This document shows, one piece after another, positions 4,636 to 29,520 of a stretch of 64,000 bases of DNA. Source of the stretch: Streptomyces humicola (GTDB lineage Bacteria > Actinomycetota > Actinomycetes > Streptomycetales > Streptomycetaceae); assembly GCF_024436035.1 (NCBI RefSeq), contig NZ_JANFNG010000001.1, positions 141,689 to 205,688 of the forward strand, read 5' to 3'. The notes beneath the pieces are model-generated. The model worked only from the letters and a program-made list of their open reading frames with translations. It did not search any database and was not told the origin of the DNA. Positions within the stretch are counted from its first letter, which is position 1. Every line of letters starts with the position of its first letter. Both the position numbers and the translations under genes were made by a program.

Positions 4636-5802
4636 GTGGACTTTGCGCTCACCGAGGATCAGGAGACCATCCGCAAGGCGGTACGCGAGCTGGCCGCCAA
4701 GTTCGACGACCAGTACTGGATGGAGAAGGACGCGGCGCACGAGTTCCCGACGGAGTTCTACAAAGCCTTCGCTGACGGCGGCTGGCTCGGCATCACGACT
4801 CCGGAGGAGTACGGTGGCCACGGCTTCGGTATCACCGAGGCGTCGCTGCTGCTCGAGGAGGTTGCCGCCTCCGGTGCGGGTATGAACGGCGCCAGCTCCA
4901 TGCACCTGTCGATCTTCGGGATGCACCCGGTGATCGTGCATGGCTCGCAGGAGATGAAGAGGGAGAACCTTCCCCGGATCGTCAGCGGTGACCTGCACGT
5001 ATGCTTCGGCGTCACCGAGCCGGGTGCCGGTCTCGACACCACTCGGATCACCACCTTCGCCAGGCGCGACGGCTCCGACTACGTCGTGAACGGCCGCAAG
5101 GTGTGGATCTCCAAGGCGGTGGAGTCAGAGAAGGTCCTGCTGCTGACCCGGACCGCGAAGTTCGAGGACTCGCCGAAAAAGACCGACGGGTTGACCCTCT
5201 TCTTCACCGACCTCGACCGCGACCACGTCGACATCCGGCCGATCAGGAAGATGGGCCGGAACGCGGTCACCTCGAACGAGCTCTTCATCGACGACCTGCG
5301 CATTCCCGCCGAGCACCGGGTCGGGGAGGAGGGCAAGGGCTTCACGTACATCCTCGACGGACTCAACCCGGAGCGGATGCTGGTGGCCGCGGAGGCCCTC
5401 GGCATCGGCCGCGCTGCACTGCGCCTGGCGGTCCGGTACGGCAACGAGCGCGAGGTCTTCGGCCGGCCCATCGGCATGAACCAGGGGCTGCAGTTCCCGC
5501 TGGCCGACTCACTGGCCCGGCTGGACGGCGCGGAGCTCGTGCTGCGCAAGGCGACGTGGCTCTACGACCACGGCAAGCCGTGCGCGCGCGAGGCGAACAC
5601 CGCCAAGTACCTCTGCGCGGACGCCGGCTTCCAGGCTGCCGACCGCGCGCTGCAGACCCATGGCGGCATGGGGTACTCCGAGGAGTACCACGTCTCGCGC
5701 TACTTCCGTGAGGCGCGGCTGACCCGGATCGCCCCGCTCAGCCAGGAGATGGTCCTGAACTTCCTCGGCGAGCACGTTCTCGGACTTCCCAGGAGCTACT
5801 GA
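4636..5802 (+). CDS. acyl-CoA dehydrogenase
   Basis: A 388-residue acyl-CoA dehydrogenase beginning MDFALTEDQETIRKAVREL. It has the substrate/FAD motif FGVTEPGAGLDTTRI, the WISKA flavin-contact segment, catalytic-type Glu in LNPERMLVAAEALG, and the dimer-interface block REVFGRPIGMNQGLQFPLAD. The C terminus ends GEHVLGLPRSY. GTGs are in frame at 4627 and 4636. GGAGAGG at 4618-4624 suits 4636 (11 bases) and is too close to 4627. The stop overlaps the next start (TGATG), so it is translationally coupled to the SDR, thiolase and CoA-transferase that follow. It probably catalyses the first step of a beta-oxidation round on an alicyclic or branched acyl-CoA; the substrate is inferred only. Confidence 0.85.
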   Translation: MDFALTEDQETIRKAVRELAAKFDDQYWMEKDAAHEFPTEFYKAFADGGWLGITTPEEYGGHGFGITEASLLLEEVAASGAGMNGASSMHLSIFGMHPVIVHGSQEMKRENLPRIVSGDLHVCFGVTEPGAGLDTTRITTFARRDGSDYVVNGRKVWISKAVESEKVLLLTRTAKFEDSPKKTDGLTLFFTDLDRDHVDIRPIRKMGRNAVTSNELFIDDLRIPAEHRVGEEGKGFTYILDGLNPERMLVAAEALGIGRAALRLAVRYGNEREVFGRPIGMNQGLQFPLADSLARLDGAELVLRKATWLYDHGKPCAREANTAKYLCADAGFQAADRALQTHGGMGYSEEYHVSRYFREARLTRIAPLSQEMVLNFLGEHVLGLPRSY

Positions 5803-6551
5803 TGTTCTCTCTGCAGGACCGCTCCGCTCTCGTCACCGGCGCGGGCAACGGCATCGGCGCAGCGGTCGCCAAGGCGTTCGCCCGGGCGGGAGCGACCGTT
5901 GTCGTCACCGACATCGACAAGGACGCCGCAGCGTCGGTGGCACAGGAGATCACGGAGGCCGGCGGCCGAGCGGAGTCGGCCGTGGTCGACGTCCGTAACG
6001 CCGAGCAGGCCGCCCAGGCCGCCGAGCAGGCCGCAGACCTCAACGGCGGCGTGCTCAACATCCTGGTCAACAATGCCGGCGCCATCGCGCCCGCGATGTT
6101 CCCGAAGATGACGGCTGACCAGTTCGATCTCGTGATAGGCGTTCACGTCGGCGGAACCTTCACCGTCAGCCAGGCTGCGCTTCCCTTCCTTCCCACGGAC
6201 GGCACCGGACGGATCATCAACGTCACCTCGGCCGCCGGGCTGGTCGGCACGATCGGGCAGGTGAACTACGGAGCGGCCAAGGCCGGTATCGTGGGGATCA
6301 CCAAGTCCCTGGCCAAGGAGCTGGCGAAGAAGCAGATCACCGTCAACGCCCTGGCCCCGCTGGCTGCGACCTCGATGACGGAGAACATCCGCAGCGACGA
6401 GAAGCTCGCCGCGATCACACTGTCCCGCATCCCACTGGGACGCTGGGCCTATCCGGACGAGATCGCGGGCAGCTTCGTGTTCTTCGCCTCCGACGCGGCG
6501 TCGTACATCACCGGCCAGGTGCTGCCGGTCGACGGCGGGACGGTCATCTGA
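5802..6551 (+). CDS. SDR-family oxidoreductase, probable 3-hydroxyacyl-CoA dehydrogenase
   Basis: A 249-residue classical short-chain dehydrogenase. The cofactor motif TGAGNGIG is at residues 12-19, the NNAG motif follows beta-4, and the catalytic Tyr-Lys occurs as YGAAKAGIVG with the upstream Ser in NVTSAAG. The C-terminal signature is SYITGQVLPVDGG. An Asp after beta-2 (VTDID) suggests NAD preference. It overlaps the previous gene by one base (TGATG) and the next thiolase likewise, so the trio dehydrogenase-SDR-thiolase looks like a complete beta-oxidation turn, with the SDR oxidising the 3-hydroxyacyl-CoA. Exact substrate unknown. Confidence 0.8.
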   Translation: MFSLQDRSALVTGAGNGIGAAVAKAFARAGATVVVTDIDKDAAASVAQEITEAGGRAESAVVDVRNAEQAAQAAEQAADLNGGVLNILVNNAGAIAPAMFPKMTADQFDLVIGVHVGGTFTVSQAALPFLPTDGTGRIINVTSAAGLVGTIGQVNYGAAKAGIVGITKSLAKELAKKQITVNALAPLAATSMTENIRSDEKLAAITLSRIPLGRWAYPDEIAGSFVFFASDAASYITGQVLPVDGGTVI

Positions 6552-7738
6552 TGCCGGCGAACCCCTTCATCGGCAACGGCCGCGAGGTGCTGGTCGTGGA
6601 GGCGCTGCGTACCCCGATGGGCAAGTCGCATCCCGAACGTGGCTGGTTCCGCGACACCCACCCCAACGAGTTGCTCGGCGCCGTCTACACCGCGCTGCTC
6701 AAAAGCACTGGGCTGGCGCCCGAGGTGGTCGAGGACCTGGTCATCGGCTGCACGGCGCCGTTCGGCGAGCAGTCCCGCAACATCGCCCGCAATGCATGGC
6801 TGCAGGCCGGCTACCCGCCGCAGGTTCCGGCGACGGTACTGGACCGCCGCTGCGGTTCTGCTCAGACCGCGGTGGAGATGGCGGCCGCTCTGGTGTCATC
6901 CGGCACCCATGATGTGGTGATCGCCGGAGGGGTCGAACACATGGGACATGTGCCGATGAACTCCCCCGCGAGGATCTCCGAGCTGTACGGCGATCCCTGG
7001 CCGGCCGAGCTCCGGGCCCGCTACGACTTTGTGCCGCAGGGGGAGAGCGCCGAGCTGATCGCCGACCGCTGGGACATCTCCCGCGAGGAGATGGACCGGT
7101 TCGCGGTCCGCTCGCACCAACTGGCCACCGAGGCGGTCGACGCCAGCCGCTTCGATCGGGAGATGATTCCGCTGGAGCTCGCCGACGAAAAGCGGGACAG
7201 CGACCAGAGCATCCGCCCGGGAACCTCGATGGAGGCGCTGGCGGGACTCAAGCCCGTCTTCCGGGAGAACGGCCGGATCACCGCAGGAAGCTCCTCGCCG
7301 ATCTCCGACGGTGCGGCCGGGGTGCTGCTGGCCTCCAGGGAGGCAGCCGACCGCTACGGCCTGCGGCCGCGCGCCCGGATCCTCGACCAGACCACGATCG
7401 GCGTCGACCCGGTCATCATGCTCACCGGTCCCATTCCGGCGACCCGGAAGCTGCTCGGGCGCAACGGCATGTCGATCGACGACATCGATTTGATCGAGAT
7501 CAACGAGGCCTTCAGCTCCGTTGTCCTGGCCTGGGAGCGGGAGCTTCGCGCGGACATGGGCAAGGTCAACGTCAACGGTGGAGCGATCGCACTGGGCCAC
7601 CCGGTGGGCGCCACCGGCTCCCGGCTGTTCGGCACGCTCATCTCCGAGATGGAGCGCCTGGACGTCGAGATCGGCCTGGTGACCATGTGCTGCGGTGGTG
7701 GGCTCGGCACCGCCACACTCGTGCAGCGGGTGGACTGA
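6551..7738 (+). CDS. acetyl-CoA acyltransferase (thiolase)
   Basis: A 395-residue degradative thiolase that would split a 3-oxoacyl-CoA with CoA. The nucleophilic cysteine is in VLDRRCGSAQTA (C101). The C-terminal half carries the NEAF motif, the GHPVGATGSRL histidine loop and the second catalytic cysteine in VTMCCGGGLGTA. Both active-site cysteines and the histidine are therefore intact. It shares ATG/TGA overlaps with the SDR before and the CoA-transferase after, placing it in one tightly coupled operon. It is not closely similar to the other thiolase in the window (minus strand, 16425), which has NRLCGSGLQ, so the two probably act on different chain ends. Confidence 0.85.
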   Translation: MPANPFIGNGREVLVVEALRTPMGKSHPERGWFRDTHPNELLGAVYTALLKSTGLAPEVVEDLVIGCTAPFGEQSRNIARNAWLQAGYPPQVPATVLDRRCGSAQTAVEMAAALVSSGTHDVVIAGGVEHMGHVPMNSPARISELYGDPWPAELRARYDFVPQGESAELIADRWDISREEMDRFAVRSHQLATEAVDASRFDREMIPLELADEKRDSDQSIRPGTSMEALAGLKPVFRENGRITAGSSSPISDGAAGVLLASREAADRYGLRPRARILDQTTIGVDPVIMLTGPIPATRKLLGRNGMSIDDIDLIEINEAFSSVVLAWERELRADMGKVNVNGGAIALGHPVGATGSRLFGTLISEMERLDVEIGLVTMCCGGGLGTATLVQRVD

Positions 7739-8976
7739 TGCTCGACCTGACGCCATATATCCGGGCCGGCGACGGCGTCTGGTGGGGTCAGGGCGGTGCC
7801 GAGCCCGAGCCGCTGGTCAACGCCCTGCTCGACCAGGTCGACGGCATCGGTCCGGTGCGCGCCTTCTGTGGTCTCACCTGGAACGAGCGGCTCTCCGGCG
7901 ATCTGCCGGAGTCGCTGACCGTGCTGTCCTACGGTGGCCTGGGCCGACTGCGCGAACTGAGCAGGCACGGACGGCTGGAGGTGGTGCCGTGCCACTACTC
8001 GGCGCTGCCGAGGATGTTCGCCCGGGGGCAGCTGCCCTGTGACATCGGTCTGCTGCAGGTGTCGCCGCCGGATGACGACGGCATGGTCTCGCTGGGGATC
8101 GGTGTGGAGTACGTCGCCGACGCGCTGCGTCAAACGCGGACTCTCATAGCCGAGATCAACCACCGGATGCCGCCGACCGTCGGCGCCGACCGATTGCCGT
8201 TGCGCGCTTTCGCGGCCACGGTGGAGACCGATCGTCCGCTGAGGGAAGCGCCCATGCGTGCTCCGGACGCCGTCGATCGTGCCATTGCCGAGCGGGTCGC
8301 CGGGCTCGTCGAGGACGGCGACACCCTGCAGATGGGCGTCGGTTCGTTGCCCAATGCGGTGCTTGAGTCGCTGTCCGGCCACGTTGATCTGGGTTTTCAC
8401 ACCGGGATGATCACAGACGGGGTGCTGGCCCTGATCGAGAAAGGTGTGGTGACCGGCGCCAGGAAGGAGATCGACCTGGGGCTGGTGGTCACGGGCGCGG
8501 CGCTCGGGAGCGTGTCGATGTACGACCGGTTGCACGAGTTCCCGGTCGAGTTCCGGGCGGCCAGCTACACGCACGACCCGGGGGTGTTGTCCCGGCTTCG
8601 CTCGCTGGTGTCGATCAACTCCGCCATCGAGGTCGACCTGCTCGGCCAGGTCGGTGCCGAGTTGAGCCGCGGGGTCCACATCGGCGCGGTAGGCGGCCAG
8701 GTCGACTTCAGCCGTGCGGCGTCGCTGACCGGTGCTCGGTCGATCATCGCGCTGCGGTCGGAGGCGGGCGGGGAGTCGACGATCAATTCGACGCTGCGCG
8801 GCGGCGCTGTCACCACGGCGCGAGTCGACGTCGACGCGGTGGTCACCGAGCACGGCGTGGCCATGCTTACCGGCTGCACTGTGGCGGAACGGGCCCGCCG
8901 CCTTATCGAGGTGGCCGCGCCCCAGCACAGGGAGAGGCTGGAGAGGAGCCTCGTGGACCAGGAGGTGTCGAGATGA
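7738..8976 (+). CDS. acetyl-CoA hydrolase/transferase family CoA-transferase
   Basis: A 412-residue protein of the acetyl-CoA hydrolase/4-hydroxybutyrate CoA-transferase family. The N-terminal half has the CoA-binding Rossmann-like domain, and the C-terminal half has GVGSLPNAVLESL, FHTGMITDGVL and the terminal VVTEHGVAMLTGCT block typical of the family. ATG 7738 overlaps the thiolase stop, and the longer open frame upstream lies inside the thiolase. It would exchange CoA between an acyl-CoA and a free acid such as acetate or a ring-derived acid. Coupled 4-base overlap with the HMG-CoA-lyase-type gene suggests that it activates or releases the acid produced there. That partnership is inferred from gene order. 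Confidence 0.75.
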   Translation: MLDLTPYIRAGDGVWWGQGGAEPEPLVNALLDQVDGIGPVRAFCGLTWNERLSGDLPESLTVLSYGGLGRLRELSRHGRLEVVPCHYSALPRMFARGQLPCDIGLLQVSPPDDDGMVSLGIGVEYVADALRQTRTLIAEINHRMPPTVGADRLPLRAFAATVETDRPLREAPMRAPDAVDRAIAERVAGLVEDGDTLQMGVGSLPNAVLESLSGHVDLGFHTGMITDGVLALIEKGVVTGARKEIDLGLVVTGAALGSVSMYDRLHEFPVEFRAASYTHDPGVLSRLRSLVSINSAIEVDLLGQVGAELSRGVHIGAVGGQVDFSRAASLTGARSIIALRSEAGGESTINSTLRGGAVTTARVDVDAVVTEHGVAMLTGCTVAERARRLIEVAAPQHRERLERSLVDQEVSR

Positions 8977-9917
8977 CGCAGGACAACCGCACCCCGGGGG
9001 AGACCCGGCGGGTGCACATTCGTGAGGTCGGCCCCCGCGACGGCTTCCAGAACGAGCCGGAGACAATCGCGACCGCCGACAAGATCCAGCTGATCAACGC
9101 ACTCGGGCAGGCCGGCTTCACCCGGATCGAGGTGGCCAGCTTCGTGCGGTCGGACGTCATCCCGCAGCTCTCCGACGGCGTCGAGGTGCTCAGGGGCATC
9201 GACCTGCCCGGCAACGTCGAGCGTATGGTGCTGATCCCCAACAGCAAGGGGCTGGACAACGCGCTGAGGGTGCGTGACTTCTTTGAGGACGCCGCCTTGT
9301 TCGTCAGCGCCTCCCAGACCCACAACAAGAAGAACATCAACCGGACCATCGAGGAGACCATGGCCGACGTCAAGGCGATGGGCAAGCGGATCCTCGCCGA
9401 GGGGCTGAAGTTCTGCGCGGTGATCGCCACCTCCTTCGGATGTCCCTTCGAGGGCAAAGTGCCTATGAAGCGGGTGCTCGATCTCGCCGAGGAGTTCGCC
9501 GAGGCGGGTGCCACCGAGGTCGGATTCGGGGACACCACCGGGATGGCGAACCCGGCCTACGTGTCACAGTTCTTCACCGCCGCCCTGGAGCGGCTGCCGC
9601 AGGTGGATCTGACCGCGCACTTCCACAACACCCGCGGGCAGGGCCTGGCCAACGCCTATGCCGCCCTCGAGGCCGGCTGCACCAGCTTCGAGTCGAGCTT
9701 CGGCGAGCTCGGCGGCTGCCCGGTCCCGGCCGGCTCCACCGGCAACATCGCCACCGAGGATCTGGTGAACATGTTCCATGAGATGGGCGTCGAGACCGGC
9801 CTCGACCTCGAGAAGGTCATCGAGGCCGCGCGCGAGGCGCAGACGATCCTCGGTCGCAGACTGACCAGCCACTCGATCGTCGCCGGGCCCGTCCTGTGGA
9901 CCCCGGTCGCCCACTGA
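8973..9917 (+). CDS. HMG-CoA lyase-type retro-aldolase
   Basis: A 314-residue TIM-barrel lyase. Hydroxymethylglutaryl-CoA lyase signatures are complete: RDGFQNE (R22, D23), TSFGCPFEG, GDTTGMA, HFHNTRGQG (H216, H218), and the loop ELGGCPVPAGSTGNIATED with C249 and N258. Metal ligands and the catalytic cysteine are therefore kept. Known members split 3-hydroxy-3-methylglutaryl-CoA into acetyl-CoA and acetoacetate, acting on a tertiary beta-hydroxy acyl-CoA. In this operon there is no leucine-pathway biotin carboxylase, so the natural substrate may be another beta-branched 3-hydroxyacyl-CoA from ring opening (inference). It starts inside the CoA-transferase stop (ATGA). Confidence 0.8.
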   Translation: MTQDNRTPGETRRVHIREVGPRDGFQNEPETIATADKIQLINALGQAGFTRIEVASFVRSDVIPQLSDGVEVLRGIDLPGNVERMVLIPNSKGLDNALRVRDFFEDAALFVSASQTHNKKNINRTIEETMADVKAMGKRILAEGLKFCAVIATSFGCPFEGKVPMKRVLDLAEEFAEAGATEVGFGDTTGMANPAYVSQFFTAALERLPQVDLTAHFHNTRGQGLANAYAALEAGCTSFESSFGELGGCPVPAGSTGNIATEDLVNMFHEMGVETGLDLEKVIEAAREAQTILGRRLTSHSIVAGPVLWTPVAH

Positions 9918-9944
9918 ACCACCACGCCTACAGGAGATTTCGCA

Positions 9945-10703
9945 ATGAGCAACCGCGTCGCACTCGTCACCGGCGGTGCCCAGGGCATCGGCAAGGGCAT
10001 CGCCACCACGCTCGGGTCGCAGGGGTTCAAGGTGGCGATCGCCGACATGAACCTCGACATCGCCACCCAGACCGCCAAGGAGATCACTGAGGCGGGGGGC
10101 ACCGCCATCGCCGTCGAGGTCGACGTCACCGACACAGCCTCGGTCGAGGCCGCCGTGCGCAAGGTCGAGGACGAGCTCGGCCCCGTCGAGGTCGTGGTCA
10201 ACAACGCCGGATGGGACGACTTCATGCCGTTCGTCAAGACGACCGAGGAGTTCTGGGACAGGGTCCTCGACGTCAACTTCAAGGGCGCGCTCCGCGTCAC
10301 CAAGGCGGTCGTCCCGGGCATGATGGAGCGCGGCTTCGGCCGGGTCATCAACATCGGTTCGGACGCGGGCCGCGTGGGCTCCTCGCTGGAGGCCGTCTAC
10401 TCCGGCGCCAAGGGCGGCATCATCGCCTTCACCAAGACCCTCGCGCGCGAGGTGGCCACCAAGGGCATCACCGCCAACACCGTCTGCCCCGGCCCCACGG
10501 ACACCCCGGCCCTGCGCAAGTTCATCGACGGGGCCGGACAAGACGCCGAGAAGGTGATCGGCGGCATGACCCGCGCCGTCCCGATGAAGCGGCTCGGCAC
10601 GCCCGAGGACATCGGCCCCGCTGCCGCCTTCTTTGCCTCCGACGCCGCCGGCTTCATCACCGGCCAGACCCTGTCGGTCAGCGGCGGACTCACCATGGCC
10701 TGA
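9945..10703 (+). CDS. SDR-family dehydrogenase, BadH-like (2-hydroxycyclohexanecarboxyl-CoA dehydrogenase type)
   Basis: A 252-residue short-chain dehydrogenase starting MSNRVALVTGGAQGIGKGIA. NNAGWDDFMPFVKTTEEFWD, the Ser in INIGSDAGRVGS and the catalytic YSGAKGGIIAFTK are present, with FITGQTLSVSGG at the C terminus. The NNAGWDDF segment is one I associate with BadH, which oxidises 2-hydroxycyclohexane-1-carboxyl-CoA to the 2-oxo form in Rhodopseudomonas; this is from memory. A BadI-type ring hydrolase at 18697 supports that role. AGGAGA lies 7 bases upstream of the ATG, and the gap to the lyase gene is 27 bases. An acetoacetyl-CoA reductase-like activity is the alternative. Confidence 0.7.
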   Translation: MSNRVALVTGGAQGIGKGIATTLGSQGFKVAIADMNLDIATQTAKEITEAGGTAIAVEVDVTDTASVEAAVRKVEDELGPVEVVVNNAGWDDFMPFVKTTEEFWDRVLDVNFKGALRVTKAVVPGMMERGFGRVINIGSDAGRVGSSLEAVYSGAKGGIIAFTKTLAREVATKGITANTVCPGPTDTPALRKFIDGAGQDAEKVIGGMTRAVPMKRLGTPEDIGPAAAFFASDAAGFITGQTLSVSGGLTMA

Positions 10704-10767
10704 CCGGCACACCTTCGTCCCGCGTGCCGGGCCATCCGCGGGAGGCTCGGCACGCCGCGCGACGATA

Positions 10768-10778: not shown

Positions 10779-10805
10779 TATGACTGGATCGAAAGGGAGG
10801 AACCC

Positions 10806-11594
10806 ATGGCCGAGCCGAATCAGCCTCACGATGTCGTCACCTGGAAGATGGAAGCGCCGGGGATCATGCACGTGACCATGGCGAGGCCGCCGGCCAACGC
10901 CCTCGGCGTGCCGCTCCTCGAGGGCATGCACGCCGCGATCGACGCGGCCGTGGCGGCCGGGAGCGTCAAGGTCGTGATCGTTTCCTCGGCGCTCGACGGC
11001 TTCTTCGCGGCCGGTGCGGACATCAAGCACCTCTCGAGCGTCGACGCCGGGTCGTTCACGGCGTACGGCGACCAGATGCGGGCGGTGAACGACCGGCTCG
11101 CGTCAGCGTCGTTCCTTTCGATTGCCGCGGTCGACGGGCTGGCCCTCGGCGGCGGCCTCGAGTTGGCCATGGCGTGCACCATGCGGGTCTGCGGCCCCCG
11201 GGGGAAGTACGGCCTGCCCGAGGTGAAGATCGGCCTCATCCCGGGCGCCGGCGGCACGCAGCGCCTGCCGCGGCTGGTGGGCCGCGGTCGCGCGCTGGAC
11301 ATCATGCTCACCGCCCGTCAGGTGCCGGCGGCCGAGGCACTGGCCATCGGCCTTGTGGATCGGCTCACCGAGGGCGACGTGGTGAAGGAGGCGCTGGCGC
11401 TGGCCGAGGAACTGGTCGGCGCATCGCTGCCGGCGCAGCTCGCCGTCGTCCGCACCGTCGATGCGGCCTTCGACCTGCCGATCGAGGAGGGCTTCGGCTA
11501 CGAGGTGGCGCAGGAGCAGTCGCTGTTCGAGGACGGCGAGGCGGCCGAGGGCATCACGGCCTTCGTCGAGAAGCGCCCCCCGAACTTCGCCTGA
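10806..11594 (+). CDS. enoyl-CoA hydratase (crotonase family)
   Basis: A 262-residue crotonase. Both hydratase glutamates are seen: LALGGGLELAMACTM gives the first Glu, and YGLPEVKIGLIPGAGGTQRL gives the second. The oxyanion-hole glycines (FFAAGADIKHL and the GGG stretch) are intact. It should add water across a 2-enoyl-CoA. GGGAGG stands 7-8 bases before ATG 10806. An operator-like element lies just upstream, so it may head a sub-operon with the thioesterase and the two atypical crotonases that follow. In the alicyclic scheme it would hydrate cyclohex-1-ene-1-carboxyl-CoA or a ring-opened enoyl-CoA; that assignment is inferred. Confidence 0.85.
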   Translation: MAEPNQPHDVVTWKMEAPGIMHVTMARPPANALGVPLLEGMHAAIDAAVAAGSVKVVIVSSALDGFFAAGADIKHLSSVDAGSFTAYGDQMRAVNDRLASASFLSIAAVDGLALGGGLELAMACTMRVCGPRGKYGLPEVKIGLIPGAGGTQRLPRLVGRGRALDIMLTARQVPAAEALAIGLVDRLTEGDVVKEALALAEELVGASLPAQLAVVRTVDAAFDLPIEEGFGYEVAQEQSLFEDGEAAEGITAFVEKRPPNFA

Positions 11595-11629
11595 CCTCGG
11601 CGGTATTCCCCCGGGAAGCCGAAGGACGA

Positions 11630-11651: not shown

Positions 11652-11705
11652 AATGCCGCGGTGGGTGCCGCGGCTCGCACGAGACGGACGGCGGACTCAG
11701 TGACG

Positions 11706-12533: not shown

Positions 12534-12612
12534 GCCCTGGGCCGCCGGCGCAGGGACCAGGGCCCGGCCCCCGGCCCGTGCCGACATGGCAACGCTTGAG
12601 CGAGGAGCACTG

Positions 12613-13425: not shown

Positions 13426-13457
13426 CGGCGATGACGACGACGATCGAAGGACCCACC

Positions 13458-19491: not shown

Positions 19492-19492
19492 G

Positions 19493-22187: not shown

Positions 22188-22201
22188 GGTGGCTCCTCGG
22201 T

Positions 22202-23305
22202 TCACTCGTGCACGAGCACGATCTTGACGGCCTCGCCGCGATGCTGGGCGGCCACGGCCTCGTTGATGTGCGAGAAGGGCATGGTGGTGACCAGCTTGTC
22301 GAACGGGAACCGGCCGGTGCGGTGCAGTTCGAGCAGCTGGGGGATGAACACGTCCGGGTCGCTGTCGCCCTCGACGATCCCGATCACCCGCACGCCGAGC
22401 ACCTGCGCCTGGATGAGGTTCAGCGCGAGCGCGGCTTCGGGGTCGGCCGGCACGCCGATGATGCCCACGGTGGCGCGGTGCGCCACGGTGAGCATCGCCT
22501 GTTGCAGCACGTCGGCGATGCCGGTCGTGTCGATCGCGTAGTCCACGCCGCCGGGAACGATGGCTCGCACCTGGTCGGGCAGCGGTCCTGCCGCCGGGTC
22601 GATCACATGGGTGGCCCCCAGGGACAGCGCCAGGTCACGCCGGCCGGCGTGCGGTTCCACGACGATGATCCGTGCCAGTTCCCGTACGACACCGGCCAGC
22701 ACCGCGGACAGGCCGACCGAGCCGCCGCCCAGGACGAGCAGCGTCGAGCCGGGCGCGCAGTCCAGCGAGTTCAGCACGGCACCGGCACCGGTCTGGACAC
22801 CGCAGCCGAGTGGGCCCAGCAGGGCCAGCGGCGCATCGTTGCCGACCTTCACCACGTTGCGCTCGTGCGCGATGGCGTAGGTGGCGAACGAGGACTGGCC
22901 GAAGAACTCGGACCCGAGTGACTGCCCGTTGTGGTGCAGGGTGCTCGTGCTGTCCTGACGGGCGCCGCCGAAGTTGTAGGCCATGAACTCGTGGCAGTAG
23001 GCGGGTTCGTTCCTGCGGCACTCGGTGCAGCGGCCGCAGCTGTTGAAGCTGAGCACCACCTTGTCGCCGACGGCGACCTTGGTGACGGCACTTCCCACCG
23101 CGGCCACGACGCCGCTGCCCTCGTGACCGAAGACCCCAGGTAGCGGGAAGGGGAGGTGGCCGTCTCTGGCGGCCAGGTCGGTGTGGCACAGACCGACTCC
23201 GGCGATCTCCACGAGGATCTCGTCGGGAGCCGGGTCGTCGAGCGTGACCGTCTGCAGGGTGAAGGCGCCACCGATCTCGGTGGCCACCGCAGCGGTGATC
23301 TCCAT
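22202..23305 (-). CDS. Zn-dependent alcohol dehydrogenase (aryl/allylic alcohol type)
   Basis: A 367-residue medium-chain dehydrogenase. Catalytic zinc ligands appear in GLCHTDL and FGHEGSG, with the third Cys in LLGPLGCGVQTGAG. The four-cysteine structural zinc loop is SCGRCTECRRNEPAYC, and the NAD motif is LVLGGGSVGLSAV. The pattern is that of benzyl-alcohol/aryl-alcohol dehydrogenases, which oxidise primary alcohols on rings. Between the ferredoxin and aldehyde dehydrogenase genes it should oxidise the primary alcohol made by the P450. Gene order parallels the Pseudomonas terp (alpha-terpineol) operon, as I recall it. Confidence 0.85.
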   Translation of the reverse strand: MEITAAVATEIGGAFTLQTVTLDDPAPDEILVEIAGVGLCHTDLAARDGHLPFPLPGVFGHEGSGVVAAVGSAVTKVAVGDKVVLSFNSCGRCTECRRNEPAYCHEFMAYNFGGARQDSTSTLHHNGQSLGSEFFGQSSFATYAIAHERNVVKVGNDAPLALLGPLGCGVQTGAGAVLNSLDCAPGSTLLVLGGGSVGLSAVLAGVVRELARIIVVEPHAGRRDLALSLGATHVIDPAAGPLPDQVRAIVPGGVDYAIDTTGIADVLQQAMLTVAHRATVGIIGVPADPEAALALNLIQAQVLGVRVIGIVEGDSDPDVFIPQLLELHRTGRFPFDKLVTTMPFSHINEAVAAQHRGEAVKIVLVHE

Positions 23306-23341
23306 GCGAACTCCTTTGTCGGGTGGAGAGGAAAGCAGGGC

Positions 23342-23659
23342 TCAGCCGTTGGTGCCGGGGACCGTCACGCGCACGGCCGCGCAGCCGTCGCTAATGATCA
23401 ACTGGCACGACAGCCGCGAGTTCGGGCGCACTCCTTCGGCGAACTCGAGCAGCTCGCGCTCCTCGTCGGTAGGTTCGTCGAAGAAGGACTCTCCCGCTTC
23501 GAGGAACACATGGCAGGTGGCGCACGAGCAGCTGCCGCCGCATTCGGCCACGATGCCGGGCAGGTTGTTGCGGACGGAGCCGTCCATCACGCTCTGTCCG
23601 CAGGGGACATCGACGTCGTGCACGGTTCCGTCGGGCAGTTCGTAAGTGACCTTGGGCAT
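23342..23659 (-). CDS. [2Fe-2S] ferredoxin, putidaredoxin/terpredoxin type
   Basis: A 105-residue adrenodoxin-class ferredoxin. The cluster ligands follow C-x5-C-x2-C-x35-C: C40, C46, C49 and C85 in AECGGSCSCATCHVF and RLSCQLI; an extra Cys at 44 lies inside the loop. This class passes electrons from an FAD reductase to class I bacterial P450s. It lies 15 bases after its reductase gene, in the P450 operon. It might also serve the Rieske dioxygenase at 55668, which has no ferredoxin gene nearby; that cross-use is speculation. Confidence 0.9.
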   Translation of the reverse strand: MPKVTYELPDGTVHDVDVPCGQSVMDGSVRNNLPGIVAECGGSCSCATCHVFLEAGESFFDEPTDEERELLEFAEGVRPNSRLSCQLIISDGCAAVRVTVPGTNG

Positions 23660-23674
23660 GGTGGTGCTCCGTAG

Positions 23675-24886
23675 CTAGTGAAGAATGGCGTCGCGCAGCG
23701 GGGTCGTGTCGTCGGCCAGCCGCGCCGGGTCGATCCGCGTCCCTGACGCGATGAACTGCTTGCCCGCCATGAACTCGGCGGCCCGGTTCGCCGATTCGAC
23801 GGCGATCAGGGTGCCGTTGTCGTGGTGGAAAAGGGCGAAGCGGCCAGCGGACGGGTCTCCTCGGACGACCGTCCGCGGCAGGGGTGGGACGAGCCCGGCA
23901 ATCTTGAGCTTCAGATCGAACTGATCGGACCAGAACCAGGGGACCTCAGCCGCCGTGGGTACGTCGCCCATGATGGTGGCGACAGCCTGCCGCGCCTGTT
24001 CGGCAGCGCTCGGGATGCTTTCCAGGCGCACCAAGGTGCCGGTGCCCAGCGGGCGTCGGGTGACGTCACCGATCGCCAAGATGTGCGGATCGTTGGTGCG
24101 TGCCTGCGCGTCCACCACGATCCCCTGATCGCAGCGCAGTCCCGCCGCGGCCGCGAGCTCGTCGCGGGGGAGGGCGCCGATACCGACCAGCACCGCATCA
24201 CTGGTGATCTCGGTGCCGTCGTCGAGCACGACGGCTCTGACCCGCCCGTCTGCGCCGCTCAGCCTGACAACCCTGGCCCCGGTGAGGATCCTGGTGCCCC
24301 GCGCGCGATGGTGAGCCGTGAGGATCTCCGAGAGCCGGGGACTGGCGACCCGGGCGAGTACCCGCTCTTCGCGTTCCACGACGGTGACCTCGACACCGTT
24401 GGCGCGCGCGACCGCGGCTACCTCCAGGCCGATGTACCCGCCACCGACGATGGCCAGGCGACGTCGCTCCGCAACGCACTTGCGCAGAATCCGGGCGTCG
24501 GCGAGCGTCCGGAGCGACACGGTCCCATCGAGGTCGGCCCCGGGCACAGGCAGCGGCCGTGGCCGGGCGCCGGTCGCCAGGACCAGGTGGTCGTAGTCGT
24601 AGGACTCGCCTGAGGCCACGTGCACGCGGCGCTCCGCCCGGTCGATAGCCACGACGCGATCGCCCAGCCGAACGGTGATGTCCTGGTCCTGGTAGAACTC
24701 CATGGGCCGGAGCCATTGCTCCAGCTCGCCCTCGGCGAACTTCTTTGACAGCGGCGGACGGTGGTAGGGAAGATCCAACTCGTCGCCGAAGAGCTCGATC
24801 GGGCCCGGGTGGCCGGCCTGCCGCAGCAGGCCGGCAAGGGTGGCGCCGGCGTGGCCGGCGCCGATGATCAGGACGCGCTCGGTCAC
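23675..24886 (-). CDS. FAD-dependent ferredoxin reductase (putidaredoxin reductase type)
   Basis: A 403-residue NADH-ferredoxin reductase. The FAD motif is [21 protein letters not shown], the NAD motif [21 protein letters not shown], and the second FAD segment ILAIGDV; the C-terminal reductase domain follows ([16 protein letters not shown]). The GTG start at 24886 overlaps the P450 stop (GTGA). Longer upstream frame lies within the P450 and is ignored. It reduces the [2Fe-2S] ferredoxin of the next gene for the P450. It is clearly more like the reductase at 61583 (shared [18 protein letters not shown] and [11 protein letters not shown]) than like the one at 31386. Confidence 0.88.
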
Positions 24887-26205
24887 GCCAGCTCCAGCCG
24901 GACCGGCAGTTTCTTCAGCCCGCCGACGAAGTTCGTCACCACGCACTTGCGCCGGCCGGTCACCTGAACGCTCTTGATGAGCGGCAGCAGCTCCTCGAAC
25001 ATGATGCGCAGCTCCAGCTTGGCGAGGTGCTGGCCGATGCACATGTGCGGGCCGTAGCCGAATGCGATCTGCTTGTTGGGCCTGCGGTCCAGCCGGAACA
25101 CCTCAGGGTCGCCGAACACCTCGGCGTCCCGGTTGGCCGACTGATACAGCAGCATGAATCGGTCGCCCTTTCGGATCTCCCGCCCGCGCAAGGTGTAGTC
25201 CTGAGTCGCCATGCGGGTGAACTGCTTGACGGGGGACACCCACCGCAGACCCTCGGTGACCAGGTCAGGGATCAACTCGGGGTGCTGCTGCGCCTTCGCG
25301 AGCTGGTCGGGGAACTGCGTGAGCGCCTCGATGGTGCCCGCCATCGTGCTGGAGGTGGTGTCGTGACCCGCGGTGGATATCGCGATGAACCAGCCGTAGG
25401 CGAATGTCTTGCGGTGGTACTCACCGTTGGCGTCGCGGGCCTGGGCGATGATGGTCGCCAGGTCGTCGCGGGGAGTCGCGCGACGGTCCTCGACCAGTTG
25501 GTCGAAGTAGGCGTAGAAGTCGTTGATCGCGGCCGACCACTGCTGGGCTGCGGCCTCCGCGGTCAGCGGCTCGACGTCATCCCGCTGCGCGTCGGGATCG
25601 GCGGTGCCGAAGAAGTCCTGCGTCAGCGCCATCATGCGCGGTTCGTCCTCCTCGGGGACACCGAAGAGGCTCATGATCACGTGCAGGGGGTAGTAGAGCG
25701 CGAAGTCCTGGACGAAGTCGATGTCGTTGGTGCCGCTGCGCAGGTGCCTGCCGATGGCCTCCTTCGCCAGCGTCCGGATGATGTCTTCCCACTTCTTGAG
25801 GTTGGTGGGCCGGAACCAGTCGTTGGCGATGTCCTTGATCTCGGTGTGCTCGGGCGGATCGAGGTAGGTCAGGGTGTCCAGAATGCGAAGGCTGCCGCCG
25901 GTGAGCTGCTTGGTGAAGGCATCGCCGGCCTGGTTCTGGAGGATCGGGTTGTGCGATCCGGGCTCGTCCCCACCCCCGCTGGTGAACACATGTGGCTGGC
26001 GCTCGATTTCCATGATGTCGGCGTGCTTGGTCACCAGCCACACGGGGTCGTAGCCCTCGACGTGGGCCTGGCCCAGCGGGTTGTTCTCCCGCAGCCACCG
26101 GTAGGCCTCGAACAACGGGCCGTCGTCGCGGTGTCCCTCCGGCAGCACGACCCGCCGGGCGATCTCGTCCGGGATCGGGCGGCTCAGTTCGGGCGTGGTG
26201 GTCAT
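24883..26205 (-). CDS. cytochrome P450, CYP108 (P450terp)-like
   Basis: A 440-residue soluble bacterial P450. The I-helix oxygen-binding motif AGHDTTSS is near residue 279, ExxR occurs in VTEGLRW (E318, R321), and the heme ligand is C389 in [12 protein letters not shown]. Long blocks such as [20 protein letters not shown] and LTQDFFG closely recall P450terp (CYP108A1), which hydroxylates the ring methyl of alpha-terpineol; the comparison is from memory. It is first in the minus-strand operon with its reductase, ferredoxin, alcohol and aldehyde dehydrogenases. GGAGGG precedes the ATG, and a perfect inverted repeat lies 33 bases upstream. Confidence 0.88.
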
Positions 26206-26237
26206 GACATTCCCTCCGAAAGGTGGCGTCGTCGCAG

Positions 26238-26264
26238 GTGGTGGTCCAATCTTTGGACCACCAC
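26238..26264. promoter_or_regulatory. 27-bp perfect inverted repeat upstream of the P450 operon
   Basis: The arms GTGGTGGTCCAA and TTGGACCACCAC (12 bases each, spacer TCT) lie 33 bases before the P450 start codon and 73 bases after the end of the LuxR-type gene. As an operator it would regulate the terp-like operon. As a hairpin it could end the regulator transcript, but no U-run follows. The half-site TGGTCC resembles the half-site of the island-wide element with wider spacing. Confidence 0.6.
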
Positions 26265-26336
26265 GATGAGTCGTGAATCACCCTCGGGGGAGAGTTTTCT
26301 CTACCCTGTGCCTCTCCCGGTCGGCCTCTCCGGGTC

Positions 26337-27527
26337 TCATCGGCTCCGTTGCATCACTGCGTGGTAGCGCGCGGTGGCCTCGGCACGGTTGGCGACGCCG
26401 AGCTTGCGCAGCACGTTCTTGACGTGCGTCTTTACGGTTCCGGGGGAGACGAAGAGCTCTGCGGCGATCTGGCTGTTGGTCTCCCCGCAGACGAGGTGCC
26501 GGAGCACTTCGAGCTCGCGGCGCGTCAATTCCGCGAACGGGCCCTCGAACCGGCGCAGCGGATCATCCGGGCGGGACTGCTCGGGTCGCGGTGCCGGCAC
26601 GTCGCACCCAAGGTACCCGTTGATGAGATCGCCCACCGAGCGGGCCTGGTCCTGCAACTGCCGCCGAATCCCGTCGAGTTGCTCGAAGCACACCAGGCGC
26701 TCGAACACACAGCCCAGCCCTTCGGCGAACAGACCGAGCAACCGCCGGTCGAACTCGTCCACGCGGTCGGTATCCACCTGCTGGTCGGCGTGCAGCAGGC
26801 CGACGACCTCGCCGTGCCCGACCAGCGGGGCGACCACGTAGTCCCTGGTCCTGGCCAGGTTGATCAGCCGGTGGTGTACCCCCGGGTTGTGCTGCGCGTC
26901 CTCGACGAGCACCGGGGTCCGCTTGCGGACCACCTCGGTCTCCGGCAACTCCCTTCCGAGCTGCCCGGGGATGGCGGTACCCAGCCGGACGAGATCGTGC
27001 GCCAGTTGGGAATCGGCGTGAACGAACGCCGAGCGGGGGCTCCAGTTCGGCCCGGACAGACGGCAGAACAGCGAGCGCTTGTAGCCCAGGCGGTTGATCT
27101 CGACCGGTACCTGCTCGACCAGGTCCTCCAGGGAGGTTGCCGCCCGCAGCCGGGACAGGCAGCGGTGCAGGTCGGTGATGGCGGCCGATCTCGCGTTGAG
27201 CCTGCTGTCCCGGATCGCGGCGAGCGTGCCGCTCAGGAGGGCCAGTGTCGCCGCCAACTGCCCTCCGGCGGAGCCTCCGCCGGCATCGCCCCATGCCGCC
27301 AGCTTGCGCAGCGCGACGTGTTCCGCCGCCCGCAGCGCGGACTCGGCCGAATGGAGGTCACGGGGCCCGGTCTCCGTCGCGAGGCCCGGCTCCCCGGTCA
27401 GGGTCGCGACAATGTCAAGAATGTCCCGGGACCGCCGCAGCAACTCGTCGGCCGGCTCAAGACCGTGCCACCGCGGTTGCTCGTCGTGGCCGCGACGCAC
27501 GGGGCCGCGTCGAACGTCATCGTTCAT
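26337..27527 (-). CDS. GAF-LuxR transcriptional regulator 1
   Basis: A 396-residue one-component regulator. The central region (about residues 120-300) is GAF-like, with VPVEINRLGYKRSLFCRLSG and VVGLLHADQQVD. The C terminus is a clear LuxR helix-turn-helix: LTRRELEVLRHLVCGETN, IAAELFVSPGTVKTHVKNVL and RKLGVANRAEA. There is no receiver domain, so it probably senses a small ligand directly. ATG 27527 is preferred over GTG 27533 because GGAGG lies 8 bases upstream. It sits just upstream of the P450 operon on the same strand and is a paralog of the regulator at 60071 beside the ring-cleavage genes. Each likely controls its neighbours. Confidence 0.8.
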   Translation of the reverse strand: MNDDVRRGPVRRGHDEQPRWHGLEPADELLRRSRDILDIVATLTGEPGLATETGPRDLHSAESALRAAEHVALRKLAAWGDAGGGSAGGQLAATLALLSGTLAAIRDSRLNARSAAITDLHRCLSRLRAATSLEDLVEQVPVEINRLGYKRSLFCRLSGPNWSPRSAFVHADSQLAHDLVRLGTAIPGQLGRELPETEVVRKRTPVLVEDAQHNPGVHHRLINLARTRDYVVAPLVGHGEVVGLLHADQQVDTDRVDEFDRRLLGLFAEGLGCVFERLVCFEQLDGIRRQLQDQARSVGDLINGYLGCDVPAPRPEQSRPDDPLRRFEGPFAELTRRELEVLRHLVCGETNSQIAAELFVSPGTVKTHVKNVLRKLGVANRAEATARYHAVMQRSR

Positions 27528-27816
27528 GGCCACCGCCTCCGCTCGCCCTCGTGCGAGGGTATCAACGGCTCATTTCCGTTCCATTGTCTCGTCCCGAAGC
27601 ACGCCGGCCTTTGCCCTGTGGGGAGAAGCGTTCGGGCAACGGCCTCGCGCGCAGGGCCGGTCTCGGTGTGAACGCGGCGGCGCGCCGTCCGAGGCCAGGC
27701 GATCCCGGGTTCGTGGTTGGGCGTCCGCGGCACCGGTTGTGGCAGTCGTGACGTTGTGCTGCCGGGTCGTCGTTCGGCCCTGATCAGGGGTGTGGGGTGG
27801 TGGGATGTTAGGCGGG

Positions 27817-29520
27817 TTACGAGATGTCTGTGGTTTGGTCGATCTTGTGGGCGATGTCTTGTCGGAGGAGGTGTTTTTGGATCTTTCCGGTGGCGGTCAT
27901 GGGCATGGTGTCGAGGATTTCGAGTCGCTCCGGGGTTTTCTGGATGGCGACTCCCTTGTCGTGGAGGTAGTGCTTGAGTGAGGTGAGGGTGGGGGGGCTG
28001 GTTGGGTCGGTGGGGACGATGTAGCAGCAGAGGCGTTCGCCGAGGCGTTGGTCGGGCATGCCCACGGCTGCTGCGGCGCGGATGGCCGGGTGGGCGGTGA
28101 GGAGGTCTTCGATTTCTCGGACGCTGATGTTCATGCCGCCGCGGATGACGATGTCTTTGGTGCGTCCGGTGACGCGGACGTATCCGTGGTGGTCCATGGT
28201 GCCCAGGTCGCCGGAGCGGGAGTATCCGTCGGGGGTGCACAGTTCGGCGGTTTCTTCGGGGCAGTTGAGGTAGCCGAGCATGTGGGAGGGGCCGCGGTAG
28301 GCGATGTCGCCTTCTGTGCCGGCTGTGAGCTTGTTGCCGTGTTCGTCGACGATGCGCACGTCGCTGAAGGGTTGTGCGGCGCCGTCGGAGGTCAGGGCGC
28401 GTTCGGGGTTGTCGTGGACGGTGCAGGTGGTGGTGGTGAGGTTCTCGCTGCGGCCGTAGAGGCTGAGGATCTTGGTGCCGGGCAGGAGGGTGCGTGCCCG
28501 CTCGACGACGGCCCGGGGGATGGGGGCACCGGCTGAGACCCATACCCGCAGGCTGGAGGCGTCGTGCCGGTGTGGGTCGTAGGTGTCCAGGAGCATTTGG
28601 ATGAAGGTGGTGGCGGTGACGCTGACCGAGCAGCGGTACTGGGCGATCTCGGCGAGTCCTCGGGCCGGGTCCCATTCGGGCATGACGTGGGTGGCTGCAC
28701 CGTGGAGGAGGGGTAGCAGGATGCTGGTGACCAGCCCGGTGGTGTGGGTGATGGGGGAGGGGCCGAACTGGACGTCGTTTTCGGTGTAGGCGAAGGCGGT
28801 GCCGAGCGTGCGTGCGCCGGACGAGTAGGTGTTGAAGGTGTGGACGCAGCCTTTGGGCCGGGCTGTGGTGCCCGAGGTGTAGACGATGACGAAGGGGTCG
28901 TCGGCGGTGACGGGTGTGGCGAGTTCGGCGTGTGTGGAGGCAGGGTCGACGTCGGCGGTCGCGGCGGTGAAACTGAGGATAGTGGTTTGGTCGCCGACGG
29001 CCTGGCCGTGGGCGGCCGCTGTCGAGGCTGCCTCGTCGTCACGCGCCACCACGATCGAGCGCAGCATGGGTCGGGTGCGTGCCAGCGCGCGGTACATCTG
29101 CAGGTAGTCGAACCCCTTGAAGACGGAGGGTATGACGACGGTGCTGACCTCGGCGTCGTCGAGGACGTGTCCGACTTCGTCCCGGCGGTAGATCGGCATG
29201 ATCGGGACCATGATGGCGCCGAGTCGGGCGACGGCGGCGGTGATGAGGGCGAACTCGGCCCAGTTGGGCAGTTGCACGGCGATCCGGTCGCCGGGTCGTA
29301 CGCCCAGGGTGCGCAGGCCGGCGGCGAGGCGGAGGGAGTCCTCGTGGAGAGCCCGGTAGCTGATCGAGGTGGTGCCGTCGGTGATGAAGGTCTTGGTGCC
29401 GAGCCTGGCGGACTGGCGGGCCAGGATGTCTGAGAGCGTCTCTGGAGTCCAGCAGCCCGAGGCGTAGTACTCCTTGATGTCGGCGGCCGAGTAGCGGTCG
29501 TTGACGGTGGGGATCTTCAT
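27817..29520 (-). CDS. AMP-dependent CoA ligase, cyclohexanecarboxylate-CoA ligase-like
   Basis: A 567-residue adenylate-forming ligase. It has VYTSGTTARPKGCVHTF, the A5 motif LYGRSENLTTTTC, the hinge SRSGDLGTMDHHGYVRVTGR, IVIRGGMNISVREIEDLL and the catalytic lysine in MPMTATGKIQKHLL. Segments PIMPIYRRDEVGHVL and VFKGFDYLQMYRAL are ones I associate with AliA-type cyclohexanecarboxylate-CoA ligases. ATG 29520 begins the conserved region; upstream open frame is non-coding in character. The promoter at 29611-29639 carries the shared operator. It would activate the ring acid produced by the P450/alcohol/aldehyde dehydrogenase set. It stops in TAA. Confidence 0.8.
   Translation of the reverse strand: MKIPTVNDRYSAADIKEYYASGCWTPETLSDILARQSARLGTKTFITDGTTSISYRALHEDSLRLAAGLRTLGVRPGDRIAVQLPNWAEFALITAAVARLGAIMVPIMPIYRRDEVGHVLDDAEVSTVVIPSVFKGFDYLQMYRALARTRPMLRSIVVARDDEAASTAAAHGQAVGDQTTILSFTAATADVDPASTHAELATPVTADDPFVIVYTSGTTARPKGCVHTFNTYSSGARTLGTAFAYTENDVQFGPSPITHTTGLVTSILLPLLHGAATHVMPEWDPARGLAEIAQYRCSVSVTATTFIQMLLDTYDPHRHDASSLRVWVSAGAPIPRAVVERARTLLPGTKILSLYGRSENLTTTTCTVHDNPERALTSDGAAQPFSDVRIVDEHGNKLTAGTEGDIAYRGPSHMLGYLNCPEETAELCTPDGYSRSGDLGTMDHHGYVRVTGRTKDIVIRGGMNISVREIEDLLTAHPAIRAAAAVGMPDQRLGERLCCYIVPTDPTSPPTLTSLKHYLHDKGVAIQKTPERLEILDTMPMTATGKIQKHLLRQDIAHKIDQTTDIS

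Follow-up and report, generated by a model that had tools for sequence, protein, structure and literature searches.

We analysed a 64,000-nucleotide stretch of the Streptomyces humicola genome (7.07 Mb in 78 contigs; G000:C11:141689-205688), hereafter called the window, which carries a cytochrome P450 oxidation set next to genes resembling the ring-opening BadH/BadI genes. Every gene called between positions 292 and 16361 was on the + strand. After 16361 came a thiolase gene (THL2) on the - strand and then three + strand genes, encoding a TroA-like protein, BADI and ACAD2; beyond ACAD2, the genes of ALDH1, ADH1, the ferredoxin, the reductase, CYP1, the LuxR-type regulator and the AliA-like ligase were all on the - strand (Table 1). 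As delimited from its gene content, the catabolic unit spans positions 292 to 29691 and is larger than proposed in an earlier note on this DNA, which began at 4636. That note had named a CYP108-like P450 with its redox chain, alcohol and aldehyde dehydrogenases, an AliA-like ligase, acyl-CoA dehydrogenases, crotonases, a BadH-like short-chain dehydrogenase/reductase (SDR) and a BadI/MenB-type hydrolase. All of these classes were found where it had placed them or nearby, and the gene order is repeated in other genomes, but its list lacked HMGL, COAT, the thiolase, the APH/DUF7064 pair, the start at 292 and CYP2. None of the window proteins reached the equivalog cut-offs of the bad, ali or menB models. 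The best NCBIfam model of BADH was TIGR03206 (312.4 bits; cut-off, 431.2), and TIGR03208 was the second-best model of ALIA (386.9 bits; cut-off, 792.3). The best match of ACAD0 in the PDB was Tcur3483, a part of a heteromeric steroid-type acyl-CoA dehydrogenase (ACAD). The real start of AMPL0 is probably internal, given its overlap with ACAD0.

Table 1 Genes of the predicted catabolic unit and the adjoining second P450 gene
Gene	Predicted product	Position	Strand	Remark
ACAD0	acyl-CoA dehydrogenase subunit	292..1476	+	best NCBIfam model PimC, below cut-off
AMPL0	acetate/acetoacetate-CoA-ligase-like acyl-CoA synthetase	1217..3412	+	
ACAD-beta	degenerate ACAD	3306..4580	+	presumed ACAD0 partner
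ACAD1	acyl-CoA dehydrogenase	4636..5802	+	
SDR1	FabG-like dehydrogenase	5802..6551	+	
THL1	thiolase	6551..7738	+	
COAT	4-hydroxybutyrate/acyl-CoA:acetate CoA-transferase-like	7687..8976	+	
HMGL	3-hydroxy-3-methylglutaryl-CoA (HMG-CoA) lyase family	8973..9917	+	signature loop altered
BADH	BadH-like SDR	9945..10703	+	proposed 2-hydroxycyclohexanecarboxyl-CoA dehydrogenase
ECH1	crotonase	10806..11594	+	candidate ring enoyl-CoA hydratase
TE	4HBT thioesterase	11661..12533	+	
ECH2	crotonase	12478..13425	+	
ECH3	crotonase	13431..14273	+	
APH	ACAD11/25-HSK (25-hydroxysteroid kinase)-type kinase	14284..15351	+	proposed tertiary-alcohol kinase
DUF7064	Rv3169 family	15348..16361	+	proposed phosphate-eliminating lyase; 25-phosphosteroid-lyase fold
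BADI	BadI/MenB-type crotonase	18697(18646)..19491	+	proposed ring-opening beta-keto hydrolase
ACAD2	acyl-CoA dehydrogenase	19409..20629	+	adjoins BADI
ALDH1	aldehyde dehydrogenase	20730..22205	-	
ADH1	zinc alcohol dehydrogenase	22202..23305	-	
FDX1	2Fe-2S ferredoxin	23342..23659	-	
FDR1	ferredoxin reductase	23675..25042	-	
CYP1	CYP108-type P450	24883..26205	-	closest to P450tol
LUXR	GAF-LuxR regulator	26337..27533	-	
ALIA	AliA-like acyl-CoA ligase	27817..29691	-	
CYP2	second CYP108	29815..31293	+	closest to P450terp

The distribution of the key genes was examined in 246 evenly drawn genomes of the class, and the figures given here hold among the matches listed. BADI (at least 77% identity), HMGL (at least 75%) and CYP1 (at least 73%) were each found in the same 4 of the 246 genomes (G000, G056, G152 and G207), while the next-best identities were 64%, 48% and 51%, respectively, the last being the window's own CYP2. 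The chance of full agreement, with three partners drawn randomly twice from 245, was ca. 2e-13, a value that overstates the case since the three partners share one family. None of the 21 genomes sampled from the family to which the window belongs had BADI, HMGL or CYP1 among the matches listed, and this absence suggests a horizontal spread of the unit. BADI relatives (79-81% identity) were located on plasmids of Rhodococcus ruber and Mycobacterium paragordonae. The GC contents, compared as a possible sign of foreign origin, were 0.684 and 0.673 in the window halves and 0.654-0.721 in eleven other stretches of the genome.

When genome contigs were searched for relatives of BADI and the best 80 of 84 were kept as loci, 69 of them (L020-L088) had a BADI 66-90% identical to that of the window; most of these were from Actinomycetota, but two from Pseudomonas and one from Aromatoleum were included. 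Neighbourhoods were counted within 10-kb flanks at the 50 of these loci whose flanks were complete, taking at least 50% identity as a match. Matches were obtained for BADH (27/50), ECH1 (30/50), ECH2 (30/50), ECH3 (28/50), APH (30/50), DUF7064 (25/50) and ACAD2 (31/50), and less often for COAT (12/50), HMGL (9/50), CYP1 (7/50), ADH1 (8/50) and ALDH1 (7/50). The low counts for HMGL and the genes past it arise because in most loci these fall close to the limit of the 10-kb flanks. TE had no match at this identity in the 50 loci and is therefore probably outside the conserved core.

Most of the unit was also present in Frankia (G207:C159, 95.5-128.8 kb) in two conserved blocks. The identities to the window proteins were 72% for ALIA, 38% for the LuxR-type gene, 79% for BADI, 63% for DUF7064, 74% for APH, 82% for ECH3, 75% for ECH2, 78% for ECH1, 79% for BADH, 80% for HMGL, 79% for COAT, 80% for THL1, 79% for SDR1, 87% for ACAD1, 62% for ACAD-beta, 67% for AMPL0 and 80% for ACAD0; in the P450 block, they were 75% for CYP1, 59% for FDR1, 61% for FDX1, 66% for ADH1 and 73% for ALDH1. 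The order within the blocks was kept, but the P450 block has different neighbours, being next to the ACAD0 end of the unit in Frankia and next to its BADI end in the window. No match to ACAD2, TE, THL2, TroA or CYP2 was found in this Frankia stretch. Comparative evidence places the P450 set in a single unit with the BadH/BadI-type genes, because they share the same four genomes, the P450 lies within 10 kb of BADI in 7 of the 50 loci, and a single 34-kb Frankia stretch holds both. The joining of a terpenoid P450 set with BadH/BadI genes, as claimed previously from the window alone, was thus borne out.

A second HMGL (77%) and AMPL0 (69%) lie side by side on the same Frankia contig, away from the main cluster (G207:C159:61211-64207), and such a pair likewise occurs at an end of G056:C31 (L122).

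The best PDB sequences for CYP1 were P450tol (702 bits) and P450terp (458 bits), with 3tkt also among the top distinct matches, and its nearest relatives were CYP108 members. CYP108N12 and CYP108N14 oxidise the methyl group of limonene, p-cymene and, in the case of N14, alpha-terpineol, according to the available excerpt of PMC11279926. The P450, ferredoxin, reductase and alcohol and aldehyde dehydrogenases of the window resemble the systems of CYP108N12/N14 (Rhodococcus globerulus), P450terp and P450tol as excerpted there; unlike those systems as described, the set here is joined to a complete ring-opening unit. Since CYP108N12 starts p-cymene breakdown in R. globerulus (PMC11279926, in the same excerpt), the P450, ADH1 and ALDH1 might make p-cumate from p-cymene for the aromatic genes at 52285-63849, with the alicyclic genes being a separate neighbour. 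A Rieske alpha subunit, a LigB dioxygenase and an HsaD/BphD-like hydrolase are indeed encoded at the right end of the window, as is an MhpD hydratase that scores above its cut-off. However, the P450 set accompanies the ring-opening genes in the four genomes that share BADI and HMGL and in the 7 loci. The amidohydrolase, LigB, hydrolase and Rieske proteins were unmatched in Frankia C159 between 50 and 150 kb, for which reason the aromatic genes were rejected as members of the unit. We thus regard the p-cymene route as quite improbable.

The region 52285-63849 itself is an aromatic meta-cleavage-type set, possibly for an aromatic-acid route. It holds the amidohydrolase, the LigB dioxygenase, the HsaD/BphD-like hydrolase and the Rieske alpha subunit, which is benzoate-dioxygenase-like, and further an acyl-CoA ligase, a LuxR-type regulator, a ferredoxin reductase and the MhpD hydratase (362 bits; cut-off, 350).

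BADI was 54% identical to Escherichia coli MenB, and its best NCBIfam model was PRK07396 for MenB (344.9 bits), the cut-off of which (380) was missed, as was that of a second MenB model, TIGR01929 (305.4 bits; cut-off, 342.7). Against the badI model TIGR03210, BADI scored 326.9 bits, under the cut-off of 467.6; L089, a bona fide-like BadI, scored 464 bits. Residues were numbered as in E. coli MenB, with L109 as the reference, and compared among 69 family, 3 BadI and 6 MenB sequences. Ser161 and Asp163 were each kept in 69/69 family sequences and in the window. Tyr258, present in 3/3 BadI and 6/6 MenB sequences, was Gly in the window and in 63/69 family sequences and Tyr in 0/69. Other replacements in the family were Thr155 to Asn (67/69) and Tyr97 to Asp (66/69). 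We take these five positions to have catalytic roles. In a tree of 100 sequences, which left out 13 near-duplicate family sequences, the short sequence L086 and the window's own copy (L100), the BADI family fell on the BadI side, as against MenB and the second copy BADI' described below, with 100/100 support and long-branch warnings. The Azoarcus KH32C locus examined belongs to another cluster than the one that PMC4109377 cites.

From these alignments and the tree, BADI is classed as a distinct subfamily of the BadI/MenB-type crotonases, in which the loss of Tyr258 may leave space for a substituent on the ring. The BadI identity assumed in the earlier note held insofar as BADI groups with BadI and retains Ser161 and Asp163, but not with respect to the TIGR03210 cut-off and Tyr258. 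The same note had held that its reading would fall if BADI were only a naphthoate synthase or an ordinary hydratase. While PRK07396 being the best model and the identity to E. coli MenB speak for this, the scores below the MenB cut-offs, the replacement of Tyr97 and Tyr258 and the grouping with BadI speak against it. In addition, the genome encodes MqnC (465.8 bits; cut-off, 428.1), its best match to MenD scored 54 bits (cut-off, 244), and no other MenB-like gene above 150 bits was found in it. Because MqnC is present and neither MenD nor another MenB-like gene accompanies it, BADI is probably not a menaquinone enzyme; it was rejected as the MenB of this genome, and we consider the naphthoate synthase or hydratase alternative very unlikely indeed.

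BADI homologues were observed in L082, L084 and L085 (Pseudomonas and Aromatoleum) at 72-74%, together with homologues of ACAD0 (56-57%), ACAD-beta (42-44%) and ACAD1 (54-55%), and L084 additionally carries an AtuA-family gene and an MmgE/PrpD gene. By sequence, these three loci are regarded as a proteobacterial relative of the pathway. In L105, a plasmid of M. paragordonae, a BADI relative (79%) lies near P450, ALDH and ADH genes, and genes for methylmalonate-semialdehyde dehydrogenase and 3-hydroxyisobutyrate dehydrogenase are located ca. 13 kb from it.

A second, MenB-side copy, BADI', was present between ECH1 and BADH in 22 of the 50 full-flank loci (L022, L024, L041, L060, L088 and others), and that of L088 scored 440 bits against the MenB cut-off of 380. 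BADI' was rejected as a general ring opener because it is absent from the window genome and from the Frankia stretch. The presence of BADI' beside BADH bears on the possibility that the unit degrades the ring of another isoprenoid, such as a bicyclic monoterpene, a sesquiterpenoid or a steroid fragment, by one or two hydrolytic openings. This would also accord with the nearness of ACAD0 to heteromeric steroid-type ACADs and with estradiol degradation in Novosphingobium, for which a P450, a BadI-like hydrolase and an HMG-CoA-synthase-like gene appear in the excerpt of PMC7793797. However, neither the window nor the Frankia stretch has BADI', and the P450 belongs to the CYP108 group of monoterpene and alkylbenzene enzymes; another isoprenoid thus seems an improbable substrate.

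HMGL scored 325.9 bits against the NCBIfam subfamily NF004283, over the cut-off of 246. Its signature loop was SFGELGGCPVP in 10/10 cluster sequences, while the leucine-pathway copy has GGIGGCPYA. Despite the changed loop, the HMGL sequences retained the R-D, H-x-H and Cys positions, which we take to be the functional positions of HMG-CoA lyase. The other HMG-CoA lyase of the genome, located on another contig, is 37% identical to HMGL and adjoins genes for a carboxyltransferase, a biotin carboxylase with an MCC-alpha domain and an ACAD, which together represent the leucine set. HMGL was accordingly rejected as a leucine enzyme, the leucine copy being elsewhere, beside the biotin carboxylase (methylcrotonyl-CoA carboxylase). 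An HMG-type lyase and a CoA-transferase without a nearby carboxylase make sense if a 4-substituted ring yields a 3-substituted 3-hydroxyglutaryl-CoA, and HMGL is proposed to act as a 3-hydroxy-3-isopropylglutaryl-CoA lyase. The same lyase step with a CoA-transferase was proposed in 2025 for anaerobic limonene use by the lrc operon, according to the excerpt of PMC12583861.

This set of genes bears on whether the unit is a general route for alicyclic (naphthenic) acids of the chcpca kind, in which the P450 would oxidise methyl- or alkylcyclohexanes and the bad/ali-like genes would degrade a plain ring acid. In Rhodococcus aetherivorans BCP1, cyclohexanecarboxylate induces aerobic BadI/BadH/AliA/AliB-like genes (PMC5906575, as excerpted), and the BADI family occurs without the P450 in most loci, both of which fit such a route. 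On the other hand, a plain or 4-unbranched ring would lead to pimeloyl-CoA and glutaryl-CoA and would need neither the HMG-type lyase and CoA-transferase nor the kinase/lyase pair, and HMGL, the CoA-transferase and the kinase/lyase pair are kept together in Frankia and others. We therefore consider this route unlikely.

The genes of APH and DUF7064 overlap by 4 bases. The DUF7064 protein scored 207.1 bits against NF053593 (Rv3169/DUF7064; cut-off, 150), and RDRS.G.R, D23, R24 and N28 were invariant in 51/51 sequences. Its AlphaFold2 model, built from 21 sequences (pLDDT, 87.4; pTM, 0.87), matched 25-phosphosteroid lyase (25-PSL) over the whole chain (Foldseek E, 1.5e-23; Z, 33.2; root-mean-square deviation, 2.7 Å; 314 aligned positions; 28% identity), and the next folds were AttH (Z, 25.9) and pericyclases (ca. 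22.8). The APH model (27 sequences; pLDDT, 90.9) matched 3dxp at the top (Z, 28.9), followed by 25-hydroxysteroid kinase (24.8), Rv3168 (24.7) and homoserine kinase (21.7), and the kinase motifs HxDxxxxN...DWE were present in 37/37 sequences. In the cluster loci, APH was located 0-153 bases upstream of DUF7064 on the same strand at 29 of 35 places, one of which was counted twice, as the Frankia canadensis locus L081 and G207 are the same place. A DUF7064 family member was found in 69 of the 246 class genomes, 62 of them over the cut-off. In 28 of the 30 best-scoring genomes (L126-L155; one place each), the family gene was immediately preceded, in the same orientation, by the gene of an APH-like kinase; these are not 28 independent cases since many are likely orthologues of one locus. 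For comparison, among 22 loci of other families, a kinase was upstream only in two, both overlapping the window's own cluster.

In Sterolibacterium, the dehydration of a tertiary alcohol by a kinase and a lyase proceeds through a phosphoester (PMC8449060 and PMC11061730, as excerpted). The folds of 25-HSK and 25-PSL from Sterolibacterium denitrificans (9fsg, 9ft5, 9fzn, 9g2i and 9g4c) match APH and DUF7064; that pair acts on sterol side chains and without oxygen, unlike the unit described here, and the excerpt of the 2021 paper reports no lyase candidate near the kinase gene (PMC8449060), whereas the two genes overlap here. The ACAD10/11 and LvaA kinases have 4-hydroxyacyl-CoA as their substrate class (PMC11342911, in excerpt). 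The structure models suggest that the APH/DUF7064 pair removes a tertiary alcohol at the cost of ATP. More broadly, we tentatively propose, at somewhat less than even chances, that APH and DUF7064/Rv3169 form a widespread actinobacterial module that dehydrates tertiary alcohols or their CoA esters, and that would here remove the C8 hydroxyl derived from alpha-terpineol and so enable HMGL to act. No paper on DUF7064 as a phospho-lyase or on an APH-DUF7064 tertiary-alcohol module was found in the open-licence literature. If true, this would give a function to Rv3168/Rv3169-type gene pairs, suggest a biochemical role for the large uncharacterised DUF7064 family, and fill in the missing lower half of terpineol breakdown; the tandem would bring a chemistry of anaerobic sterol use into an aerobic and general setting.

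On the whole, we give even chances to the hypothesis that positions 292-29691 are a catabolic unit for a p-menthane-type monoterpenoid, with alpha-terpineol/oleuropeate the most likely substrate and limonene/perillate the next. The parts, their families and their co-occurrence rest on sequence and comparison, and from these we infer the substrate and the chemistry as described below. CYP1 with FDR1 and FDX1 would hydroxylate the ring methyl group, and ADH1 and then ALDH1 would convert the product to the ring acid. ALIA would form the CoA ester, already a 1-ene, which a crotonase would hydrate and BADH would oxidise to the 2-oxo ester. Hydrolytic ring opening by BADI would give a pimeloyl-CoA bearing the C3 side chain, and one round of beta-oxidation (ACAD0/ACAD-beta or ACAD1, a crotonase, SDR1 and THL1) would lead to a 3-substituted glutaryl-CoA. 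With a 2-hydroxypropan-2-yl side chain, this would be a 4-hydroxyacyl-CoA with a tertiary alcohol, which APH would phosphorylate and from which DUF7064 would eliminate phosphate, amounting to an ATP-driven dehydration; the step at which the pair acts is a guess. Isomerisation and hydration would then yield 3-hydroxy-3-isopropylglutaryl-CoA, a homologue of HMG-CoA, for HMGL. The keto acid released by the lyase would be re-activated by COAT or AMPL0, and a thiolase would produce isobutyryl-CoA and acetyl-CoA. Alpha-terpineol would fit all of the parts because it accounts for the ring methyl group, the ready enoyl ester, the C4 branch and the tertiary alcohol, while limonene/perillate fits everything except the kinase/lyase pair. 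The ring-acid pathway outlined previously thus stands as to its parts, which form one unit, but as written it ended at ring opening and left HMGL, COAT, APH and DUF7064 unused.

Several observations weigh against this hypothesis. CYP1 is nearer P450tol than P450terp by sequence, and the P450terp-like CYP2 is outside the Frankia stretch; both would weaken alpha-terpineol in particular. Three of the four co-occurring genomes come from one family. No more than 7 of the 50 full-flank loci have a CYP108 gene in the 10 kb around BADI, and this count, together with those for APH (30/50) and DUF7064 (25/50), implies that the ring-opening core would also work without the P450, APH and DUF7064, on other substrates. 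A valine-type block, which would take isobutyryl-CoA, adjoins BADI in one record only, L105, so that valine-type genes were rejected as general BADI neighbours and give no support for isobutyryl-CoA. The sequence of APH is nearer to ACAD11-type kinases (113 bits) and 3dxp than to 25-HSK (48.5 bits), and no ACAD11/LvaC-type dehydrogenase was among the PDB matches listed for ACAD0 (60 of 76), ACAD1 and ACAD2. LvaA/LvaC was accordingly not adopted as the sole model for APH, and DUF7064 may stand in for the ACAD11/LvaC-type partner. Finally, DUF7064 has the AttH/Diels-Alderase/kievitone-hydratase fold, which is also used for other kinds of reaction.

The proposed pathway resembles several known systems, which were compared by the descriptions in excerpts of the respective papers. 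The lrc operon of Syntrophobacteraceae LiM6 is described as hydrating and oxidising perillyl-CoA, opening the ring hydrolytically, and continuing by beta-oxidation to 3-isopropenylglutaryl-CoA, cleavage of 3-hydroxy-3-isopropenylglutaryl-CoA and an acyl-CoA:acetate CoA-transferase; it differs in being anaerobic, in its entry by fumarate addition and in LrcC, which is of the HMG-CoA synthase superfamily, and the excerpt mentions no kinase/DUF7064 pair (PMC12583861). In the mrc cluster of Castellaniella defragrans 65Phen, the BadK/BadH/BadI-like MrcF/D/E open the ring of perillyl-CoA; its entry is by limonene dehydrogenase, its proposed end product is methacrylyl-CoA, and an HMG-type lyase and the kinase/lyase are not mentioned in the excerpt (PMC4109377). 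The chcpca genes of R. aetherivorans BCP1 are an aerobic actinobacterial BadI/BadH/AliA/AliB-like set, and the P450 set, HMGL, the CoA-transferase and the kinase/lyase are not listed in the excerpted table (PMC5906575). The edc operon of Novosphingobium tardaugens combines a P450 with a BadI-like hydrolase, a thiolase and an HMG-CoA-synthase-like gene, differing in its estradiol substrate and alphaproteobacterial host (PMC7793797). Within these excerpts, the mrc ring opening, the aerobic chcpca set, the edc combination of P450 and BadI-like hydrolase, and the lrc lyase step are each in print, and the novelty that the earlier note had seen in an aerobic BadH/BadI set joined to terpenoid oxidation could not be upheld (PMC5906575, PMC4109377, PMC7793797). 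In the open-licence literature, no paper was found on a P450, BadI and HMG-CoA lyase unit in actinobacteria, and neither the whole aerobic unit nor the distinct BADI and lyase subfamilies were found. The lower pathway behind actinobacterial CYP108 monoterpene oxidation is undescribed in the open-licence papers found, and the unit is a complete, compact candidate for it; the HMGL variant would extend the textbook HMG-CoA lyase family to branched substrates.

The TroA-like protein (17752-18516), a helical backbone metal receptor encoded between the two blocks, had no match at 50% identity among the 50 full-flank loci. Beside the unit, positions 37969-48542 encode YrbE/MlaE permeases, an ABC ATPase and six Mce/MlaD proteins, which constitute an Mce-type uptake system, and a frame with SurA_N/PPIC rotamase domains (50566-52152) is located directly behind the Mce genes.

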